From the NCBI RefSeq assembly GCF_026651875.1, contig NZ_CP104067.1, positions 2,418,001 through 2,482,000 on the forward strand: a DNA stretch of 64,000 bases, read 5' to 3'. The stretch's first letter is position 1. Every line of letters starts with the position of its first letter. Under the pieces are notes generated by a model. That model was given only the letters and a program-made list of their open reading frames with translations, ran no database searches and was not told where the DNA came from. This document shows positions 1 through 12,580 of this stretch, piece after piece. Source of the DNA: Alicyclobacillus fastidiosus. Its GTDB lineage: Bacteria > Bacillota > Bacilli > Alicyclobacillales > Alicyclobacillaceae. The translations under genes and the position numbers were made by a program.

Positions 1-318
1 ATTGAAGCAGCCATCAACGAAGGCGTAGATTTACAATTATCGCCTGAAGAACAAGCTTTTTACGATGCACTGTCCCGACCGGAATTGATAAAGGTGCATT
101 ATAAATCGGATGTCCTGAGAGAGATGGCGAAGAAGCTGCTCGAAGTGATTCAGAAAAACAAAACACCGGATTGGTACAAGAGAAATGACGCGCGAGCCAA
201 TATGCGGGCACTTATCAAGAGACTGTTGAAAGAGTACAAATATCCACCCGATGAGATTCCGAATGCAGCGGAACTTGTCATTAAGCAAGCTGAATTGCAG
301 ATGAGGCATGCGATTTAG
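1..318 (+). CDS. hsdR: Type I restriction enzyme HsdR subunit, C-terminal end (partial)
   Basis: The reading frame is open from the first base and stops at 316-318, so the window holds only the last 105 codons. The segment with DWYKRNDARANMRALIKRLL followed by KYPPD matches the C-terminal helical domain (DUF3387 type) of type I restriction R subunits, the ATP-driven translocating and cleaving subunit that works with HsdM and HsdS. Motor and nuclease domains would lie before the window. ydbC follows after 20 bp. The HsdR call rests on this short conserved tail only. Confidence 0.72.
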   Translation: MEAAINEGVDLQLSPEEQAFYDALSRPELIKVHYKSDVLREMAKKLLEVIQKNKTPDWYKRNDARANMRALIKRLLKEYKYPPDEIPNAAELVIKQAELQMRHAI

Positions 319-338: not shown

Positions 339-560
339 ATGGCAGAGATCAAGTTCGAAATCACTCAAAATATTGGCTTTTTGTCCGAAGGTGCTAAAGG
401 ATGGAAAAAGGAAATTAACCTCATAAGCTGGAGTGACCGTGAACCTAAGTATGACATTCGAGATTGGTCACCAGGACACGATAAAATGGGTAAAGGCATT
501 ACGTTAACGAAGGAAGAACTCATTACCTTAAGGAATATATTAAACCAATTGAACATCTGA
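339..560 (+). CDS. ydbC: YdbC family protein, PC4-type single-strand DNA-binding domain
   Basis: A 73-residue protein that is essentially one PC4-like fold. The run KGWKKEINLISWSDREPKYD, then RDWSPGHDKMGKGITLTKEE, is the hallmark of the YdbC family of Firmicutes. Family members bind single-stranded DNA or RNA as dimers and are related to the eukaryotic transcription coactivator PC4. The start has a good ribosome site (CCGGAGG, about 10 bp upstream). It lies 20 bp after hsdR and may be co-transcribed. Its cellular role in bacteria is not settled. Confidence 0.85.
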   Translation: MAEIKFEITQNIGFLSEGAKGWKKEINLISWSDREPKYDIRDWSPGHDKMGKGITLTKEELITLRNILNQLNI

Positions 561-737: not shown

Positions 738-1927
738 CTGCGTTTATCGATTTGAGTACCGACAACTTGTACTGTACCACATCGGATAAATGTCCTAAAT
801 TGCTCGTTTTACAAGAGGTCTTTTTCTGTGACATAATATACCATATATGAATATTTTTCAGATAACATGTGGACCGGTGCAACTCTTTTTTACTAATGTA
901 ACATTTGAATCTTGCTGGCGAGCCTGCACCGGACAGTAATCCGATTAGGAGTGGAAATTCACTGTGACGAACATATCGCAATACAGTGCACATTTGGCGT
1001 TAATTAAACAACACCTGCTGAATAAACAAGCCGTTTTATTTGTGGGGGCTGGCTTTTCACTAAATGCGGAGCCAAAGTACGTTGGGACCAAGTGCGTATT
1101 CCGGTGAATTCGGCCACCTGTTCCGGAAATATGTAGGCCAGTGAATCCGATAAATCGCGGCCACCGAATCCGGTAATTTGCAGCCACTTTTGACCGCCTC
1201 GTAACGTGGTTATATTCTACTTACCAGAATTATCTTCTATAGACAATGAACTTTTTAATTTACGCATCGATTCTCCATTGATTTCAAGCTTATAAGCGTT
1301 GTGCACAATGCGGTCAAGAATCGCGTCAGCAAGTGTGGGATCTACAAAATGCTCGTGCCATAGCTCGACAGGCAGTTGACTGGCAATACAAGTGGAATGC
1401 GTGTTTGTCCTTTCGTCTAATAGATCTAGGAGATCTCGACTTTCGGGGACAGACATAGGTGCCAATCCCCAGTCGTCAAGAATGAGCAGGTCTGCCTTCC
1501 GAATGTGGCGTTGTAATCGCTCGTAGGATCCATCCCCTTTGGCGATAAGTGATTCCTGAAGAAGTTTAGAAACTCGAAAATAACGGACATTAAGATTTTG
1601 ACGGCAAGCGGCTGTACCTAATGCGCAAGCAATGAAGGTTTTCCCGACACCTGTCGGGCCGACTAGGATGAGATTATGATGTGCTTGGACCCATTGCCCG
1701 GTGGTCAGTGAACGAAGCAATCCGTGATCCAATGTTCGAGATGTGTATGGTCAAATAAAAATGGAGGTTTCGATCATCAGAAATTCCCTGATCTAATCAT
1801 TAAGAAATCCTTGCTGATGTCATCAGGAAATCCCTGATCTGATCTGGAAATTTCCCTGGTGTATCTCTCCTAATTGTGTCATTTGCTTCTTACAATCCTC
1901 TTTGTAGAAATGCGAGGAGGAGAAAGG

Positions 1928-3418
1928 ATGACGATGAGTATGGAGCAGATTCACCGGATCAAGGAACTGCAACTCCAAGAGAAAGGAGCGTATCAGATTG
2001 CAAAGGAATTGGGGCTAGATCCCAAGACCGTTCGGAAATACATGAAGCAGGAGGACTTCTCCCCAAGGCTGCCTGTGCCAGTGTCTAAGCCATCCAAGTT
2101 GGATCCCTACAAACCAACCATTGATGCATGGCTTCTTCAAGATGCTAAAAATCGGTACAAGCAACGTCATACGGGGAAGCGAGTATATGACCGACTCGTG
2201 AAAAAGTTTCCGGAGTTCAACTGTTCGTACCCGACCGTGAACCGATACGTGACCGCATTTCGTCAACGCCAGCACCTTAGTAAGAAGGGCTATCTTGAAC
2301 TTCAGTGGCATCCTGGAGAGGCTCAGGCTGATTTTGGTGAATGTGATGTGATTGTAAACGGCGTGCGACGCGTTACGAAGTATCTGGTGGTATCTTTCCC
2401 GCATAGCAATGCAGGATTTGTTCAGTGCTTTCTCGGTGAAACTGCTGAATGCTTATGCCAAGGATTAATGGACGTCTTTTATCATATTGAGGGTGTTCCG
2501 TCACGACTTGTGATTGACAATGCCACAGCAGCCGGCAGGCGAATTGGAGAGCTAGTTCGCCTTACACAGTTGTTTAAGCGATTCCAAGCCCATTTCGGAT
2601 TTGAGATTACATTCTGCAATCCGAATAGCGGTCATGAAAAAGGAAATGTGGAGAACAAGGTTGGTTACGCTCGGAGAAATTACATGGTTCCCCTACCATC
2701 CAAAGTGTCATTGCATGAGTGGAACACTGAATTATTCGAACTATGCGATTTGGATAATAGCCGCGAGCACTACAAGAAAGGAGTACCTATCTGCGAGTTG
2801 TTTGAGAAGGACAAGGAAGCCATGCGAGCACTCCCAAACGCGCCGTTTGAATCTTGCCGATATGGGCATGTAAAGACCAACGGCTATGGCAAGTTCATAC
2901 TTGATGGCAAGCACACTTATTCTTCCTCGCCGCTGTATGCAGACCGGGAGATTATTGTCCGGATCGGCGCACATTTCATTGAACCACTTGATGAAGCGGG
3001 TGACGTTATCTCTCGCCACGAAAGGGAGTTCGGTACAGAGCGGACAGACACAGTCGACTGGTTAACGATGCTAGATCAATTGATTGTAAAACCAGGAGCA
3101 TGGCGAAACAGCCTGATGCGTAGCCAAATGTCCTACGAGGTTCGTGATTACATGGATGAGCAGGACAAGAGTGGGTTACGGCAAGCGTTACGCCTCATGA
3201 AGGATTTGTCTAACCAATATGGCTTGGACGTTGCGGTGACTTCGATACAGGAAGCAATTGTTCGCAAACGCACACAAGGCATTGAGGTCAATGCAGCAGT
3301 TGTTGCGGCTCGGATTGCTCACTACGGTCTGGATACGCCAGGGGAGCCTGGACCCGACATGAGCCAGTATGATGTTTTACTACCCGCATTCGGAGGTGAA
3401 GTGCATGGACCGCAGTGA
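1928..3418 (+). CDS. istA: IstA transposase of element B (IS21 family)
   Basis: 496 residues from ATG 1928, chosen because AGGAGGAGAAAGG lies just upstream. An earlier in-frame start at 1874 has no ribosome site. The N-terminus has a helix-turn-helix (ERKELQ-like region, then KELGLDPKTVRKYM, about residues 20-40). The DDE/RNase H catalytic core follows, with EAQADFGE (first Asp) and the VIDNATAAG and GHEKGNVENKVGYARRN blocks (second Asp and Glu). IstA cuts and joins the element ends. It overlaps istB by 14 nt. No damage is visible, so the element may be active. Confidence 0.92.
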   Translation: MTMSMEQIHRIKELQLQEKGAYQIAKELGLDPKTVRKYMKQEDFSPRLPVPVSKPSKLDPYKPTIDAWLLQDAKNRYKQRHTGKRVYDRLVKKFPEFNCSYPTVNRYVTAFRQRQHLSKKGYLELQWHPGEAQADFGECDVIVNGVRRVTKYLVVSFPHSNAGFVQCFLGETAECLCQGLMDVFYHIEGVPSRLVIDNATAAGRRIGELVRLTQLFKRFQAHFGFEITFCNPNSGHEKGNVENKVGYARRNYMVPLPSKVSLHEWNTELFELCDLDNSREHYKKGVPICELFEKDKEAMRALPNAPFESCRYGHVKTNGYGKFILDGKHTYSSSPLYADREIIVRIGAHFIEPLDEAGDVISRHEREFGTERTDTVDWLTMLDQLIVKPGAWRNSLMRSQMSYEVRDYMDEQDKSGLRQALRLMKDLSNQYGLDVAVTSIQEAIVRKRTQGIEVNAAVVAARIAHYGLDTPGEPGPDMSQYDVLLPAFGGEVHGPQ

Positions 3419-4145
3419 GATACGACTAGAAATCTCACAATACTGCCGACAATTAATCCTGAGTCAGAATGCGGTACGGTTATGCGATTTAGAAGCTACG
3501 CCAAGACAGGAGGAGTTTCTACATAAGGTGTTCCGGGAGGAATTGGAGCACCGCGAGCGTCAGCGGAGAATTCGTTTATTTCAACGAGCTGCGTTCCCTG
3601 TACGAAAAACGCTGGAGGGGTACGAATTCAGTTCACTTCGCCTGCCCTCTACCTTGTCCCTGGATGAACTGACTTCGTGTCAGTTTGTCCAGGAGAAAAA
3701 GAACCTCGTTCTGTATGGTCCTGTCGGCACTGGTAAGACACACCTTGCCATTGCCTTAGGAACGAAAGCGTGTGAGATGGGAATTGTTACGAGGTTTTTC
3801 ACCGCAGCATCCCTGGTGACACGACTGAGCGAGAGCAAACGCGCTGGATCTTTAGAACGCATAATGAAGGAACTAGAAAAGGCTCAGCTTGTGGTCATTG
3901 ATGAGTGGGGTTACCTTCCGATGGACCGTGAAGAGGCGCAGCTATTATTTCAAGTGGTTGCAGCTAGTTACGAGAGACGAAGTTTGGTGATCACCACGAA
4001 TCTGGAGTTCTCCAAATGGGGCGGTATTTTCACGGATGACCAGATGGCTGCTGCAATGATTGACCGTCTGGCGCACCATGGACAACTTGTTGTGTTTGAG
4101 GGAGAAAGCTACCGACTAAAACACGCATTGATGCGGCAAAAATGA
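3405..4145 (+). CDS. istB: IstB helper ATPase of element B
   Basis: 246 residues from ATG 3405, with GGAGGTG at 3392-3398; a longer in-frame reading from 3369 lacks a ribosome site. Walker A GPVGTGKTH and Walker B LVVIDEWGYLP identify the DnaC-like AAA+ domain of IS21 helper proteins. It oligomerises on target DNA and stimulates the IstA transposase. The 14-nt overlap with istA suggests translational coupling. The sequence is full length for the family. Confidence 0.92.
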   Translation: MDRSEIRLEISQYCRQLILSQNAVRLCDLEATPRQEEFLHKVFREELEHRERQRRIRLFQRAAFPVRKTLEGYEFSSLRLPSTLSLDELTSCQFVQEKKNLVLYGPVGTGKTHLAIALGTKACEMGIVTRFFTAASLVTRLSESKRAGSLERIMKELEKAQLVVIDEWGYLPMDREEAQLLFQVVAASYERRSLVITTNLEFSKWGGIFTDDQMAAAMIDRLAHHGQLVVFEGESYRLKHALMRQK

Positions 4146-4584
4146 CCCAAACAGAACTGGAAATACACCAGGGAATTCTCGTGATAATACCAGGGGATTT
4201 TAGTTGATCACACCAGGGAAAAATCGATGATTACACCAAGGAAAAAGTGATGATAAAACCAGGGAAATCTTCTTGACAAAACACAGTTCGAGACACGTGA
4301 TTCTCAATTTCTTCGGGTGCCGCGTTGATTTTCAAGCGAGCTTCCCGAATCAGACGCTGTTGGCGATGGTTTTGTCGGTTAACCCATTCATGGTCAACCA
4401 AGAGACCAAACCGTTCCTCGAACGTGAGGCTCTGAGCATTTGGATCCTGAAGCTGTTGTGTGTAGGCGTCCGCCATGGCACCGAGTTTCATCTGGCGCAG
4501 GTACTGAAGGGTTGGATTGGTTAGCATGAATCGTCTCTCCTCATGTGAGGAGGGCAAGATTGGCCCTCCCATAGAATTGTGATA

Positions 4585-5865
4585 TTAGTTAAGCAGGCCC
4601 GATTGGTAGTACTGTGCGCCACGAACATTGTTGTGGTTCGGTGTAACCCTGTGATCTCTAGCAACCAAGTCGGCCTTGTCCAATCCCTTTTGGAGGATGG
4701 ATTTTACACTCCGATACGATGGTGAATTGATTGTGAGTGCACGTAACGCTGCCGCCTCGAGTCGTTCGGTAGAATACTGTTTACCAAGACCCAGTAATCC
4801 GAGGCACGAGCGGTATCCCTGCTCTGGATGCTTGAACTTCTGCAAAATCCGTTCCACCAACATCCCAGTGTTTGGTCCAACGCTGTTTCCCCAAGAGATG
4901 AGTCGAGAGGGTGTCCATTCCAGATGCTTCTGGTGAGATTTCGGACGATGGAGTGGCTCGGTACGTGCTTGGCCAGGTGCAAACGCGCGTGCGTGACTAG
5001 CAATCCGTTTACCCTTAAAGAAAATCTCAACTGTGTTCTGTGTAATCCGAGCGTCCACGCGTTGACCCACCAACGAGTAAGGAACGCTGTAAAACGCTCG
5101 ATGTACTTCGATGTGGTAGTCTATGTGTACGCCGCACAGCTTCCACTCTGCGTATTCGTAGGGTGTTGCAGGCAGGGGTCGGAGGGCGAGCTGGTCCGTG
5201 GCCGCAAACAGGGACTGACGCGAGCCCTCTAGCTTTTGAAATGGTTTGTGATTCAGCCGATTCACCAGTTCTTTAATTGCCTGATTCAATTCATGAAAGC
5301 TAAAAAACACGCGGTTTCGAAGTACCGCCATAATCCAACGTTCCACGATTTGGACGCCGACTTCTGCCTTGGGCTTGTCCTTTGGCTTTCTGGGACGGGC
5401 CGGTAAGATGGCACAACCGTAGTGAGACGCCATTTCTTGATAGCTTCGATTGAGTGTGGGTTCGTATCGGTCTGCTTTAAACACTGCGGACTTGAGATTA
5501 TCCGGGACGACCAACTCAGGAACACCGCCGAAGAACGCAAAAGCACGGACATGACCACTGATGAATGATTCCACGTTTTGAGCTGGGTGTGCCTCTGCGA
5601 ACGTGTAGTTGCTCGCCCCCAATACAGCCACAAAGATTTGTGCATGTTGCACTTCTCCGGTTTCTCGATCTACAACAGGCAGTGTGGGGCCGGCGTAATC
5701 CACGAACATCTTTTCTCCGGCGCGATGTTCCTGGCGCATAGTGATTTGTAACTGTCTTTTCCAAACCCGATACCGTTCACAAAACTGGCTATACTGATAC
5801 CCGTCTGGATGTTGTTCCTTGTACTCCATCCATAGTAGTTGTAGGGTGACACCCTTTCTCTTCAA
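4585..5865 (-). CDS. istA: IstA catalytic part of element A, copy 1
   Basis: 426 residues, identical to the copy at 9043-10323. It holds the DDE core ([16 protein letters not shown]; the [18 protein letters not shown] block with the catalytic Glu) and the C-terminal region, but not the helix-turn-helix, which is in another frame upstream (5862-6113). The TTG at 5863-5865 overlaps the stop of the upstream frame. See the entry at 8795 for the frame change. Confidence 0.8.
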
Positions 5866-6113
5866 TTCCTGATGGATCTTTTCCCACTCCGGCTCGAAGC
5901 AGTTCTTGGGGCGACCCAGGGGGCAGGAAACAGTAGAGACTCCAATTTTGAGTCATCCATGTCGTCGGGAATTGGCCAAGAGAGGCCGATTTCCTTAGAT
6001 CTTGTGATGATTTTGCTGATTGTGCTACGGGAGAGAGATACGCTTTTGGCGATGGTACGCTCGCTGAGTCCAGCCTCAGCGTACAACCTAAGTACTTCGT
6101 GGATCTTGCGCAT
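5862..6113 (-). CDS. IstA N-terminal DNA-binding part of element A, copy 1
   Basis: 83 residues starting [19 protein letters not shown], a helix-turn-helix with the second helix at [11 protein letters not shown]. It is identical to 8795-9046 in copy 2. In typical IS21 elements this domain is fused in frame to the catalytic core. Here the frame changes at a run of five C (G on this strand) and the ORF ends at 5862. The ribosome site AAGGAGG precedes the start. Confidence 0.7.
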
Positions 6114-8794
6114 TGGTGTCCTCCTTCTGGGCAACGGTGACAACAACTCCTTTCTGTCCAAGAGACTGAGACAGATTCAAGAGATCTGTTGTTCTACCTG
6201 CCGCTAAAATTGGAACCAACGCTACGAGGGGAAGAACCAAAAACTAGCTCTCAAAAGTGGCTGTGATTTTCCGGAACAGGTGGCCGCGAATTTCCGGAAC
6301 GAGTGGCTGCGATTAAACGGAACGCCCGGCCGCTATTTTCCGGAATGCGTGGCTTTTTTCATCCGGAATACGCAACCAAGGAAACTTTCAAGACTTGGAC
6401 AGCATTTATTGAACAAATTGGACAACGGCTGTGGAAAGATCTCTATTCAAACGATATCAATAAATTCAAGGAAAAAATTTATGGAAATCACCTCTTAGTG
6501 GCGCAATTATACCAAGAGGAGTTTGGAACTCAAGCTTTTTATAACGAACTGTTACAAGCAATTCCTTATGATAAATACCAACCATCCCATGCTCATTGGG
6601 AATTACTTTCATTGGGGTGGAGGGACATTATTACTACCAATCAGGACGATCTTATTGAGCGAGCATTGAACGATTTATATATTTCTCATGACGTTATTTT
6701 AGACGATCTTGACATCCCGACAAAGGGGAACCCATTAAAGGTACACAAAATTCACGGTAGTATGGAACGTCCGTCCAGCATTGTGTTTACGGAAGAGCAT
6801 TATCGCACGTACGAACATAGTCATCCTCTGATGTTTGTGAAATTAAAATCAATGTTTGCTGAGAATACGATTGTATTCGTTGGGTATAGTTTGACAGATC
6901 CCGATTTTAAAATTATTCATGGTTGGGTCAGCGATGTGCTAAGTCCAAAGTTCCAAAGAAAGGCTTATGCGTTTGTGTTTGCTGACGAGATAGATCGGTA
7001 TACAGCACGTTATTGGGAACAAAGAAACATTATCCTGTTACCGATACCCGTCCAAAATAATTTAAACCGAAAACAAACATTTCTCTCAGGAATCAGGGAA
7101 TATATCGAAATATTAAAACCCAGTCGTCACGACAACGAAGGAGACACGTCGGATACTGATTATAAGACCCTGGGTCAGTATAACTCCTTTACTCAAAAGT
7201 ACAAGGATTTAAAGGCTCTTGACGTAAAAGCCATGATTAATGATATGCAAGTTCTCCCAAATGACGGCTCTAGTTCAGCAGTTATGAGAATTTTCTTCTG
7301 GAAAATCATCGATGTGCTTAAAAACCTTTCCGATGACGAATATAAATTTGGGATTTTTGTTCAATGGTTGAAATTTGTTAATCCGTTTACGTCGGTTGGT
7401 CAACATACTTTAATAGACTATCTCATCACGCAGTTAAAGTTGCATCCAGAGTGGGGGAATCAGCGAGTTCTAGAGGAGTTTTACCAATTAAAAGCTGAAT
7501 CGTTATGTCGGATTGGTAAATATGCTGATGCCAATAGTTTGTGCCAAGAGATCATGGCAACAGAGTCTGATCTTTCTTTGGACTTACAAAATAACTTGCT
7601 CTTCATCCGTCTTATCGCTGCCAAATTTGAATTTGACCTCCATCAAGTTCGAGAATTGGTTGGGCGGATCGTATTGGAATCGGAAGATCCGATTTGGTTA
7701 AATCGTATTGGAAATGCACTTTTAATTTTGGGAGATGACGTTCTCGCCAGTGTGTATTTCAACCGCGCAATTAAAGCCGCTCAGGACACAAGAGATAATT
7801 GGAATCAGTTTGTGGCTTACAATTCGCTTCTGCTAATACGAGACAGCACGTACACCAGACTACATTCTGTTAAAATGCGTAATGTCCATGAAAGTCTGGT
7901 CGAAGTTAAAAATTCATTTACTAAGACACCTGACCCAAGATATAAGCGCTTGAAGGAATTCGAACAACTTAAAACAAGGTGGAATGAGTACCACGTTTGG
8001 GAGATGGATGTGAAATCCGAACATCGTGCAGCGTTTAATTCCGAGTCAACGAACCTCTACTTCGACCTATGGGACTACATTTATTTTGTACAAGCTATGG
8101 GGTTGCCGGATGCGTATTTGCAAGGTTCCACATACGATAAAGTGGGCGCTATGCTTTTTGAAAATAACCCTGTAATTGGAGTAAAGTTTGCTGTTTACTT
8201 TGGGCACACAGATACCTTATCGAAGCGATTAAGTTTTTCACGAATATCGGAACTTTCTACTGACAGTCGTGATGAGTTGTCGAAATTAAGCAATGAAATT
8301 TATAGTTCTTTATTAAAATGGATTGAGCGACCTGGCGAGCTGAAATATTTTGGATGTATCGGAGTATGGTTTGATGCCCTTGCTAAATTATGGAGTTTTC
8401 TCATTCCAGTTTCTTTTGATGAGGAAATAAAGGGTATTGAGGATTTTTCGTGGAGGCTCTTTGAATCGTTGACCAATGGACGACTGTTAATGCAATTTCA
8501 CCAAGTAGCCGAGCAGATAATCCATGTGCTAGGTGCGTATTCCGGATGAAAAAAGCCACGCATTCCGGAAAATAGCGGCCGGGCGTTCCGTTTAATCGCA
8601 GCCACTCGTTCCGGAAATTCGCGGCCACCTGTTCCGGAAAATCACAGCCACTTTTGAGAGCTAGTTTTTGGTTCTTCCCCTCGTAGCGTTGGTTCCAATT
8701 TTAGCGGCAGGTAGAACAACAGATCTCTTGAATCTGTCTCAGTCTCTTGGACAGAAAGGAGTTGTTGTCACCGTTGCCCAGAAGGAGGACACCA

Positions 8795-9046
8795 ATGCGC
8801 AAGATCCACGAAGTACTTAGGTTGTACGCTGAGGCTGGACTCAGCGAGCGTACCATCGCCAAAAGCGTATCTCTCTCCCGTAGCACAATCAGCAAAATCA
8901 TCACAAGATCTAAGGAAATCGGCCTCTCTTGGCCAATTCCCGACGACATGGATGACTCAAAATTGGAGTCTCTACTGTTTCCTGCCCCCTGGGTCGCCCC
9001 AAGAACTGCTTCGAGCCGGAGTGGGAAAAGATCCATCAGGAATTGA
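8795..9046 (+). CDS. IstA N-terminal DNA-binding part of element A, copy 2
   Basis: 83 residues from ATG 8795, with AAGGAGG at 8782-8788. A helix-turn-helix is visible ([20 protein letters not shown]), followed by the [18 protein letters not shown] segment usual just before the catalytic part of IstA. From the C run at 8985-8989 the correct continuation ([20 protein letters not shown]) is in the -1 frame. So istA is divided by a one-base shift. It ends in TGA at 9044-9046, overlapping the TTG start of the next frame. Confidence 0.72.
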
Positions 9047-10323
9047 AGAGAAAGGGTGTCACCCTACAACTACTATGGATGGAGTACAAGGAACAACATC
9101 CAGACGGGTATCAGTATAGCCAGTTTTGTGAACGGTATCGGGTTTGGAAAAGACAGTTACAAATCACTATGCGCCAGGAACATCGCGCCGGAGAAAAGAT
9201 GTTCGTGGATTACGCCGGCCCCACACTGCCTGTTGTAGATCGAGAAACCGGAGAAGTGCAACATGCACAAATCTTTGTGGCTGTATTGGGGGCGAGCAAC
9301 TACACGTTCGCAGAGGCACACCCAGCTCAAAACGTGGAATCATTCATCAGTGGTCATGTCCGTGCTTTTGCGTTCTTCGGCGGTGTTCCTGAGTTGGTCG
9401 TCCCGGATAATCTCAAGTCCGCAGTGTTTAAAGCAGACCGATACGAACCCACACTCAATCGAAGCTATCAAGAAATGGCGTCTCACTACGGTTGTGCCAT
9501 CTTACCGGCCCGTCCCAGAAAGCCAAAGGACAAGCCCAAGGCAGAAGTCGGCGTCCAAATCGTGGAACGTTGGATTATGGCGGTACTTCGAAACCGCGTG
9601 TTTTTTAGCTTTCATGAATTGAATCAGGCAATTAAAGAACTGGTGAATCGGCTGAATCACAAACCATTTCAAAAGCTAGAGGGCTCGCGTCAGTCCCTGT
9701 TTGCGGCCACGGACCAGCTCGCCCTCCGACCCCTGCCTGCAACACCCTACGAATACGCAGAGTGGAAGCTGTGCGGCGTACACATAGACTACCACATCGA
9801 AGTACATCGAGCGTTTTACAGCGTTCCTTACTCGTTGGTGGGTCAACGCGTGGACGCTCGGATTACACAGAACACAGTTGAGATTTTCTTTAAGGGTAAA
9901 CGGATTGCTAGTCACGCACGCGCGTTTGCACCTGGCCAAGCACGTACCGAGCCACTCCATCGTCCGAAATCTCACCAGAAGCATCTGGAATGGACACCCT
10001 CTCGACTCATCTCTTGGGGAAACAGCGTTGGACCAAACACTGGGATGTTGGTGGAACGGATTTTGCAGAAGTTCAAGCATCCAGAGCAGGGATACCGCTC
10101 GTGCCTCGGATTACTGGGTCTTGGTAAACAGTATTCTACCGAACGACTCGAGGCGGCAGCGTTACGTGCACTCACAATCAATTCACCATCGTATCGGAGT
10201 GTAAAATCCATCCTCCAAAAGGGATTGGACAAGGCCGACTTGGTTGCTAGAGATCACAGGGTTACACCGAACCACAACAATGTTCGTGGCGCACAGTACT
10301 ACCAATCGGGCCTGCTTAACTAA
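9043..10323 (+). CDS. istA: IstA catalytic part of element A, copy 2
   Basis: 426 residues of DDE transposase. FVDYAGP, the VPDNLKSAV motif and the [18 protein letters not shown] block mark the three acidic positions; the C-terminus is complete. The listed TTG start overlaps the upstream stop (TTGA) and has only a weak AGGAA before it. The family-like protein continues upstream in this frame to 8986, so the natural product is probably a frameshift fusion with 8795-9046, or the gene is damaged. The identical state in both copies argues that the element has moved in this form. Confidence 0.82.
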
Positions 10324-10380
10324 TATCACAATTCTATGGGAGGGCCAATCTTGCCCTCCTCACATGAGGAGAGACGATTC

Positions 10381-11139
10381 ATGCTAACCAATCCAACCCT
10401 TCAGTACCTGCGCCAGATGAAACTCGGTGCCATGGCGGACGCCTACACACAACAGCTTCAGGATCCAAATGCTCAGAGCCTCACGTTCGAGGAACGGTTT
10501 GGTCTCTTGGTTGACCATGAATGGGTTAACCGACAAAACCATCGCCAACAGCGTCTGATTCGGGAAGCTCGCTTGAAAATCAACGCGGCACCCGAAGAAA
10601 TTGAGAATCACGTGTCTCGAACATTGGATCACGGATTGCTTCGTTCACTGACCACCGGGCAATGGGTCCAAGCACATCATAATCTCATCCTAGTCGGCCC
10701 GACAGGTGTCGGGAAAACCTTCATTGCTTGCGCATTAGGTACAGCCGCTTGCCGTCAAAATCTTAATGTCCGTTATTTTCGAGTTTCTAAACTTCTTCAG
10801 GAATCACTTATCGCCAAAGGGGATGGATCCTACGAGCGATTACAACGCCACATTCGGAAGGCAGACCTGCTCATTCTTGACGACTGGGGATTGGCACCTA
10901 TGTCTGTCCCCGAAAGTCGAGATCTCCTAGATCTATTAGACGAAAGGACAAACACGCATTCCACTTGTATTGCCAGTCAACTGCCTGTCGAGCTATGGCA
11001 CGAGCATTTTGTAGATCCCACACTTGCTGACGCGATTCTTGACCGCATTGTGCACAACGCTTATAAGCTTGAAATCAATGGAGAATCGATGCGTAAATTA
11101 AAAAGTTCATTGTCTATAGAAGATAATTCTGGTAAGTAG
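10381..11139 (+). CDS. istB: IstB helper ATPase of element A, copy 2 (intact)
   Basis: 252 residues from ATG 10381 with AGGAGA at 10367-10372; an in-frame ATG at 10336 is less well placed. Walker A GPTGVGKT (about residue 110) and Walker B LLILDDWG are present, and the length is normal for IstB (about 250). It follows istA by 57 bp. This is the only intact istB of element A here and could serve both copies. Confidence 0.92.
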   Translation: MLTNPTLQYLRQMKLGAMADAYTQQLQDPNAQSLTFEERFGLLVDHEWVNRQNHRQQRLIREARLKINAAPEEIENHVSRTLDHGLLRSLTTGQWVQAHHNLILVGPTGVGKTFIACALGTAACRQNLNVRYFRVSKLLQESLIAKGDGSYERLQRHIRKADLLILDDWGLAPMSVPESRDLLDLLDERTNTHSTCIASQLPVELWHEHFVDPTLADAILDRIVHNAYKLEINGESMRKLKSSLSIEDNSGK

Positions 11140-12398
11140 AATATAACCACGTTACGAGGCGGTCAAAAGTGGCTGCAAATTACCGGATTCGGTGGCCGCG
11201 ATTTATCGGATTCACTGGCCTACATATTTCCGGAACAGGTGGCCGAATTCACCGGAATACGCACTAGGTATGAGTTTTTACTACAGACATGAAAAACACA
11301 CGCAAAATCGGATCACAGAAATCATAAATCAGTTTGCAGGGCAACATCTACTTTCGGTGAGCTTTGGCTCTCTCCCTTGGGAGCAATTTGTTCATCCAAT
11401 GGAAATCACCGAAGAAGCAATTGGGAAACTCGTTGAAAGTAATGAATATGGAATCGTATACAATCTAATGCAGTTCAAATTGATCTCCGATTCAGTGAAG
11501 AATCTAATTCGTGAGGCATTGTACCATAATGGCAACCTATTCAGGGGAGAAAATGATTTTATCCAGAAATTTCTTTTACTAAAGTTTTTTGCAACTGAAG
11601 TTGACGAAGGTCTCCGGAAAATGTTAATTGACAAAGCCACAACTACGTTTTGCAGTCAGAACAGTTCACGGAATTTGTCACTACTCACAGGATTGGGGGG
11701 GATCGTCACTTGGATATCCGCAGAAAATGTTCAACATTTATTAGAAGCATGTCAAAATAAAATGAAACAAACCGACGAACGGAGTATGCTGTATGCTAGG
11801 GACGAAATTGTGACCGCGTACTTAATATTCATATATCGACTTGACGAAGCGGGCAAATTGGGCGATTCGAGTTTATTCAATACTGAACTGGAACGTTACA
11901 AAAACAACCTGTCCAACACGTTCGCCGTAGTTCTAGAGGAAAACCCAAACGTGATAAATCGGCTTGCACCGAGCGCTTTTCGAGATGGAATTTTAATACC
12001 CAATCCCAAACAGCGTAGAAAGTATATAGAGTTGACTGGGCGTTGGCTAGCGAAGAACGAAAATTTAACTGACGATGGATGGGCACTATTAGAAATAATT
12101 CTTGCTGGCTTTTATGATTCCAACGTAGAAGTAGCAAGTGAGTCTATTCGTGCTGTAGCCTTTATCGTCAAAGCTGGTCAAGAGTGGATACTACAGTATC
12201 GGCAGCGTATCGTTGACGCTACCGCATTCAGCTTCGAACGCAATGATATTCGTTTGCTCACAAACTTAGCCTTTTTATACAAGGAACTTTCTGGACAAGT
12301 GGAGGACGATGTCTCCGATGCGGTGAATCAAAAACTCGCCGTACTCCGAGACATGCATTACGCAAATGTCCGTCGAGAAGTGTCTCCACATTGACACA

Positions 12399-12423
12399 AG
12401 CCGCCCATATGGGCGGTTTTTTC
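12399..12423 (+). terminator. Terminator after the SIR2 gene
   Basis: CCGCCC ATAT GGGCGG hairpin followed by six or more T, starting a few bases after the SIR2 stop codon at 12394. It confirms that the split gene originally ended here. Confidence 0.85.
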
Positions 12424-12479: not shown

Positions 12480-12580
12480 GGCTCTGGTGCAAAAATTTAC
12501 GAAACCACAATATACAGTGGTGTATCGTAACTGATTCCACACTACATGTGGTGTATTCAAATATTTTTGCACCAGAACCC
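12480..12580. repeat. MITE-like repeat, copy 1
   Basis: About 101 bp, bounded by GGCTCTGGTGCAAAAAT and its near inverse ATTTTTGCACCAGAACCC. A second copy lies in the opposite orientation at 23330-23431, with shared interior blocks (CGAAACCACAATATACAGTGG and the region around CACACTACATGTGGTGTATT). There is no coding capacity. The termini resemble those of IS6-family elements (GGTTCTG-TGCAAA), so a non-autonomous derivative is likely. No clear target duplication is seen. The rest of the 12424-12728 gap holds nothing I recognise. Confidence 0.75.

Follow-up and report, generated by a model that had tools for sequence, protein, structure and literature searches.

Among the described anti-phage systems that come closest to the gene treated here, DSR2 of Bacillus subtilis (Protein Data Bank (PDB) entries 8wkt and 8k98) is a single-gene product of about 1,000 residues, in which an N-terminal SIR2 domain that destroys nicotinamide adenine dinucleotide (NAD; such enzymes are called NADases) is followed by a long C-terminal part. 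According to passages of the sources cited, DSR2 is activated by a phage tail tube protein (PMC11087589, PMC10981675), and N133 and H171 are required for its activity (PMC11087589). DSR1 is likewise a long protein that begins with a SIR2 domain, and Lamassu systems with a SIR2 effector consist of two genes, LmuA and LmuB, the second coding for an AAA/SMC-like ATPase. In Thoeris, ThsA reads the signal of ThsB by a SLOG or macro domain. Here we describe a large SIR2 gene that is broken into three pieces by insertion sequences (IS) in Alicyclobacillus fastidiosus. It lies in a stretch of 64,000 nucleotides of contig NZ_CP104067.1 (G000:C1:2418001-2482000), and "window" below means this whole stretch. 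We put the probability at about three in four that what remains here was once a single-gene anti-phage system of ~1,135 residues, with a SIR2-type NADase joined to an alpha-helical solenoid in a DSR2-like manner. Its likeness to DSR2 extends to the putative N-terminal SIR2 NADase domain, the same Asn/His pair, the length, the long C-terminal part and the single gene, but in sequence the two are similar only up to about residue 290. By analogy, the protein probably worked like DSR2, yet it fails the tests for being one.

Three pieces of one former gene

Piece 1 (964..1092, + strand) begins with a GTG start and encodes residues 1-43, including the sequence GAGFS, which we take to be the sirtuin motif named GAGFS or GAGxS. 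Piece 2 (6381..8533, +) encodes the remaining SIR2 domain and the first half of the predicted solenoid, with a weak TPR-like signal, and piece 3 (11269..12394, +) the C-terminal half, in 374 whole codons (11270-12391) and a stop. The lengths of the separate pieces (129, 2153 and 1126 nt) sum to 3408 nt, and beyond the insertions no further stop or other lesion was present in them. An uninterrupted relative of 1,127 aa was found in Alicyclobacillaceae bacterium I2511 (G038; QXHL01000024.1), a member of the same family. Each piece was compared with it separately. Piece 1 aligned with residues 1-42 at 55% identity (expect value (E) 3e-14) and piece 3 with residues 756-1126 at 31% (E 8e-53); piece 2 aligned at 46% identity (650 bits) from residue 44 to about residue 750, and another search placed it at 41-753. 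Because the pieces are collinear with a single uninterrupted protein elsewhere, their boundaries are not a matter of chance, and the three pieces are one former gene. A first-pass annotation of this DNA had proposed such a single gene, and the coordinates and lengths it gave for the pieces, as well as its direct repeats, were exact on recheck. It had also named two outcomes that would speak against the proposal, relatives lacking the joined form and pieces matching different proteins; I2511 has the joined form, and the pieces match this one protein in order.

The two gaps are filled by copies of one IS21-family element. Copy A (1093..6374, − strand) is interrupted by a nested element, and copy B (8534..11263, +) is 2,730 bp long, with IstA at 8747-9046 and 9043-10323 and IstB at 10336-11139. 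Copy A minus the nested element equals copy B letter for letter over 2730 bp, and both copies have TGCGTATTCCGG ends. Target duplications are exact for copy A (ACCAAG, 1087-1092 and 6375-6380), for copy B (CTAGG, 8529-8533 and 11264-11268) and for the nested element (GTTCGAGA, 1734-1741 and 4286-4293). The latter is 2,544 bp long (1742..4285, +; IstA 1874-3418, IstB 3369-4145). Where the earlier reading had a gene cut by the same IS21-family element, this holds for copies A and B, while the nested element is a different element of that family. Both elements share with IS21 the IstA and IstB proteins (IstA 282.8 and 245.6 bits against a curated cut-off of 160; IstB 246.3 and 264.3 bits against 200), matching inverted ends and short target duplications of 5-9 bp. 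The first element departs from the family in that its IstA is encoded by a pair of overlapping frames, of which the second lies at −1 relative to the first, an arrangement that is present in identical copies; a programmed frameshift, coupling and a two-part transposase are candidate readings, and the element has clearly transposed.

In the genome the first element has four copies, two of them in the SIR2 gene, plus a diverged relative at 66-68% identity, and the nested element has 12. Each of the four copies of the first element is flanked by exact duplications (5-7 bp), as are the 11 of 12 nested-element copies that were resolved (6-9 bp). The copies compared, which comprised all but the twelfth nested one, were identical or differed by one or two bases. 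These observations, together with pieces that carry no other stop, fit the recent loss that had been suggested from the sequence. The first element would thus have entered the gene twice, in opposite orientations, leaving it dead here. A composite transposon that imported the middle piece was considered and rejected: the duplications match at each copy, the relative is collinear, and the pieces have a common reading direction.

The SIR2-solenoid family looks rare, with members found in two genomes only. Piece 3 was found in 1 of 40 other genomes of the family and in none of 397 other genomes of the phylum (398 searched, own genome only). A profile of the solenoid, run against 398 genomes of the class, recovered A. 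fastidiosus (G000), I2511 (G038) and a marginal match in G507 (E 3.4e-4), the last being a 590-aa frame that reads as a TPR-like protein and in which no SIR2 domain was noticed, without a scan aimed at SIR2. Profile A3 matched its own genome and 25 others among 398 of the phylum, all of the latter within profile positions 6-280. In plasmids and in phages piece 3 had no match, and the solenoid part had no viral match under E 0.001. For piece 2, none of 192 plasmid records covered 80% of the piece, the 20 listed covering the SIR2 part only, and four pattern matches in viral contigs included no relative. The scan of genome contigs relied on two short patterns, by which distant members would be missed. 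In addition to the intact gene, a decayed copy is present in I2511 (G038:C130 8205-8718; L022:7944-9003); it is 78% identical and contains a stop.

A SIR2 domain and a predicted solenoid

The SIR2-type region comprises the first ~290 residues. Piece 2 scored 82.7 bits for SIR2_2 (PF13289; curated cut-off 24.5), and the expected catalytic pair was located at Asn87 and His125 of this piece, corresponding to Asn130 and His168 in the intact relative. The sequence features of an NADase-type SIR2 domain are divided between piece 1, with GAGFS, and piece 2, with Asn and His. The best sequence match in the PDB was DSR2 (8wkt, 8k98), followed by the NADases ThsA and KomC, and the intact relative could be aligned with DSR2 through the ITTN and KxHG motifs. 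In PADLOC, too, pieces 1 and 2 had Dsr2 as their top model, and in NCBIfam it was the only one listed for them, each time in its N-terminal part only. For the intact relative, Dsr2 again ranked first in PADLOC with model positions 10-287 of 1222 only, ThsA came next (98.4 bits), and the Dsr1 match was weaker and limited to the SIR2 part (39.3 bits). At the level of sequence, these matches support NADase-type sirtuins as the nearest kin of the domain. Because the insertion after position 1092 parts GAGFS from Asn and His, no single piece should be a working NADase; the insertions would also cut the solenoid in its middle.

The remaining ~830 residues, scanned as pieces, gave nothing over cut-off in Pfam, PADLOC or NCBIfam, in agreement with the first-pass remark that some 800 C-terminal residues were not recognised. 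Below threshold there were signals of TPR models for piece 2 (E 0.04-0.05); those for piece 3 were of CtsR_C (E 0.22) and PRK14013 (E 0.07). Against the PDB, designed armadillo proteins came up for piece 3 (E 1.7e-6) and engineered TPR proteins for the intact relative (E 5.5e-9), besides other weak hits; in neither case did a single stretch pass, and such matches to designed repeats are consistent with a helical repeat protein. When the part after the SIR2 domain was modelled alone, it was all-helical (mean predicted local distance difference test score (pLDDT) 74.2, predicted template modelling score 0.53), and this part is predicted to form a helical solenoid. Its Foldseek matches in the PDB, 50 listed of 1,347, were mostly eukaryotic helical repeats such as the PP2A A subunit, CRM1 and SF3b, with template modelling (TM) scores of at most 0.33.

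We infer NADase activity, a phage trigger and abortive infection for the intact protein. On the model of DSR2, the sensor would be the solenoid, which would hold the NADase in check; once a phage protein is bound, the active NADase would destroy NAD+ and thereby stop the infected cell. Several observations weigh against this interpretation. The full-length AlphaFold2 model was poor (mean pLDDT 62.9, and <50 over much of residues 1-300), and with the SIR2 part of the model so poor the active site was judged by alignment. In a Foldseek search with the full-length model, DSR2 chains took ranks 1-34 at TM scores of 0.11-0.25; with the solenoid alone, however, no DSR2 was among the 50 listed of the 1,347 matches, where a lower rank is possible, and the three PDB sequences that the solenoid profile listed at E values up to 10 did not include it either. 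It is thus probably the SIR2 part that put DSR2 ahead in the full-length search. Moreover, only one intact member was found, with nothing to show that the gene has spread or been kept up by selection, and we know of no activity for any SIR2-solenoid member, papers on the family not having been searched for. Membership in DSR2 was itself rejected: piece 2 scored 113.0 bits and piece 1 18.8 against the full-length model NF041819 (cut-off 1400), which piece 3 did not match, and no C-terminal homology to DSR2 appeared among the listed sequence and fold matches. If the solenoid of the I2511 protein senses a phage protein different from those that DSR2 is known to respond to, it would be a new sensor on the well-studied NADase principle.

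Insertion load and the loss of the gene

The only other PF13289 match in the genome at E 0.001 was LmuA of a Lamassu LmuA/LmuB locus (G000:C1 about 61-69 kb; L005:1271-9182; − strand), which like the SIR2 gene is interrupted by IS and unlike it has two genes. LmuA consists of parts 1-129 and 128-376, separated by an IS1182-like transposase frame that scored 111 bits, under the cut-off of 270 for that model, and LmuB is split into 1-160 and 169-639 by a copy of the nested element (G000:C1:62740-65283). Among PF13289 proteins, to which the search for sirtuin families was confined, both systems of this genome are thus broken, and the four insertions involved belong to three element types.

We consider it slightly better than even that the SIR2 gene was lost by neutral decay, in which non-essential genes of an IS-rich genome are hit in time and the hits carry no information on cost. 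The genome contains 172 transposase matches (131 DDE_Tnp_1, 29 rve and 12 copies of the nested element), a count restricted to these groups that retains fragments and for which 150 of 160 DDE_Tnp_1 candidates were scored. A neutral 3.4-kb gene would be expected to receive 0.10 insertions, with a probability (P) of two or more of 0.004, and at threefold density 0.29 (P 0.035). As judged by eye, 14 other insertion sites lay in transposase-like genes (4), in places without a clear gene (6), in a large surface-like repetitive protein (1), in LmuB (1), inside the first element (1, the nested copy in the window) and next to a PnuC-like gene on one side (1). Neutral decay accounts less readily for one gene holding half of the first element's four copies, with a probability of ~0.007 that any two of them come within 3.4 kb of each other at random, and for both PF13289 systems having been hit by three element types where the type I restriction genes are open. 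All of these chance figures are post hoc and lack a census control.

Selection for the loss, which the first-pass annotation had raised as a possibility, is given distinctly lower odds here. It would apply if SIR2 NADase systems became costly through self-triggering, with a prophage or other element as a conceivable trigger, so that IS knock-outs were favored. The interruption of both PF13289 genes points in this direction, as does the absence of other lesions in the pieces, which is expected of a recent loss. However, a second hit in a dead gene brings no selective gain, and the SIR2-domain matches of four related genomes (G007, G018, G024 and G027) lie in open frames. On balance, neutral loss was judged likelier than selected loss, for which the evidence is suggestive. 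Even more doubtful is a wider reading, according to which the gene belonged to a rare SIR2-solenoid group with its own phage-sensing solenoid, unrelated to DSR1 and DSR2, and NADase-type defence, including LmuA/LmuB, was knocked out repeatedly as harmful. With both of its SIR2_2 systems lost, this genome offers a place to ask whether NAD-depleting defences go faster than others.

Restriction-locus setting and neighboring genes

The assembly comprises 6.04 Mb in four contigs and was flagged for 9.38% contamination; the window and both SIR2_2 (PF13289) loci are on the 5.72-Mb contig. At its start the window contains the end of HsdR of a type I restriction locus (1..318, +; 603.1 bits against a cut-off of 284.55 for the part in L003, the region upstream). 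HsdM, HsdS and most of HsdR are located directly upstream of the window in L003, and HsdM scored 192.5 bits, under its cut-off of 242.75. The type I restriction genes adjoining the SIR2 gene are open frames, which bears out the restriction neighborhood that had been noticed at first. The intact gene of I2511, too, has a type I restriction locus next to it, with matches to the R, M and S models, an uninterrupted orthologue near restriction genes being what the first-pass annotation had suggested looking for. Since the arrangement differs between the two genomes, this neighborhood is a shared type of setting and no fixed operon. GC content of the gene pieces was 39-44%, compared with 58% in the first 6.2 kb of L003, and was only slightly under the 45.6% of window positions 12.8-64 kb. 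Beside the type I restriction genes, upstream of HsdM, there is a cluster of TIR, SLATT (DUF4231), TIR and TPR-S genes (L003:6609-9327), which looks like a separate conflict or defence system.

The TIR genes raise the question of Thoeris, in which the SIR2 protein would be a ThsA-like effector fed by upstream ThsB-like proteins. Both genes are of ThsB type (PADLOC ThsB; L003 6609-7034, 44.6 bits, and 7592-8068, 145.5 bits) and lie ~8-9 kb upstream, and the SIR2 domain matches ThsA models too. Yet neither a SLOG (STALD) nor a macro domain was found in pieces 1-3 with Pfam, PADLOC and NCBIfam, the TIR genes cluster apart with the SLATT and TPR-S genes, and no ThsB-like open reading frame was noticed by eye, with no scan made, near the intact relative. 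Membership in Thoeris is very unlikely and was rejected for want of a SLOG domain. Still less probable is a deacetylase or phage-unrelated housekeeping role, which the sirtuin fold permits (it includes deacetylases, and the PDB relative 9v0g is so named) but which agrees poorly with best matches to DSR2 and then to the ThsA and KomC NADases, with the few genomes holding the gene and with the restriction-locus setting in both.

Several minor features surround the SIR2 gene. Between HsdR and its start lies a small gene (window 339-560), which presumably resembles YdbC/PC4-type coactivators. A promoter-like TTTACA-18-CATAAT (808..837, +) is located 5' of the start; it is weak evidence, with four promoter-like sites on both strands of 540-1100 against 1.2 expected from shuffles. 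A terminator-like hairpin with a T run, seen by eye, follows right after the stop (12400..12422, +), and further 3' there is an imperfect 47-nt inverted repeat (window 12480-12579), 72% complementary and with 6 nt between its arms.

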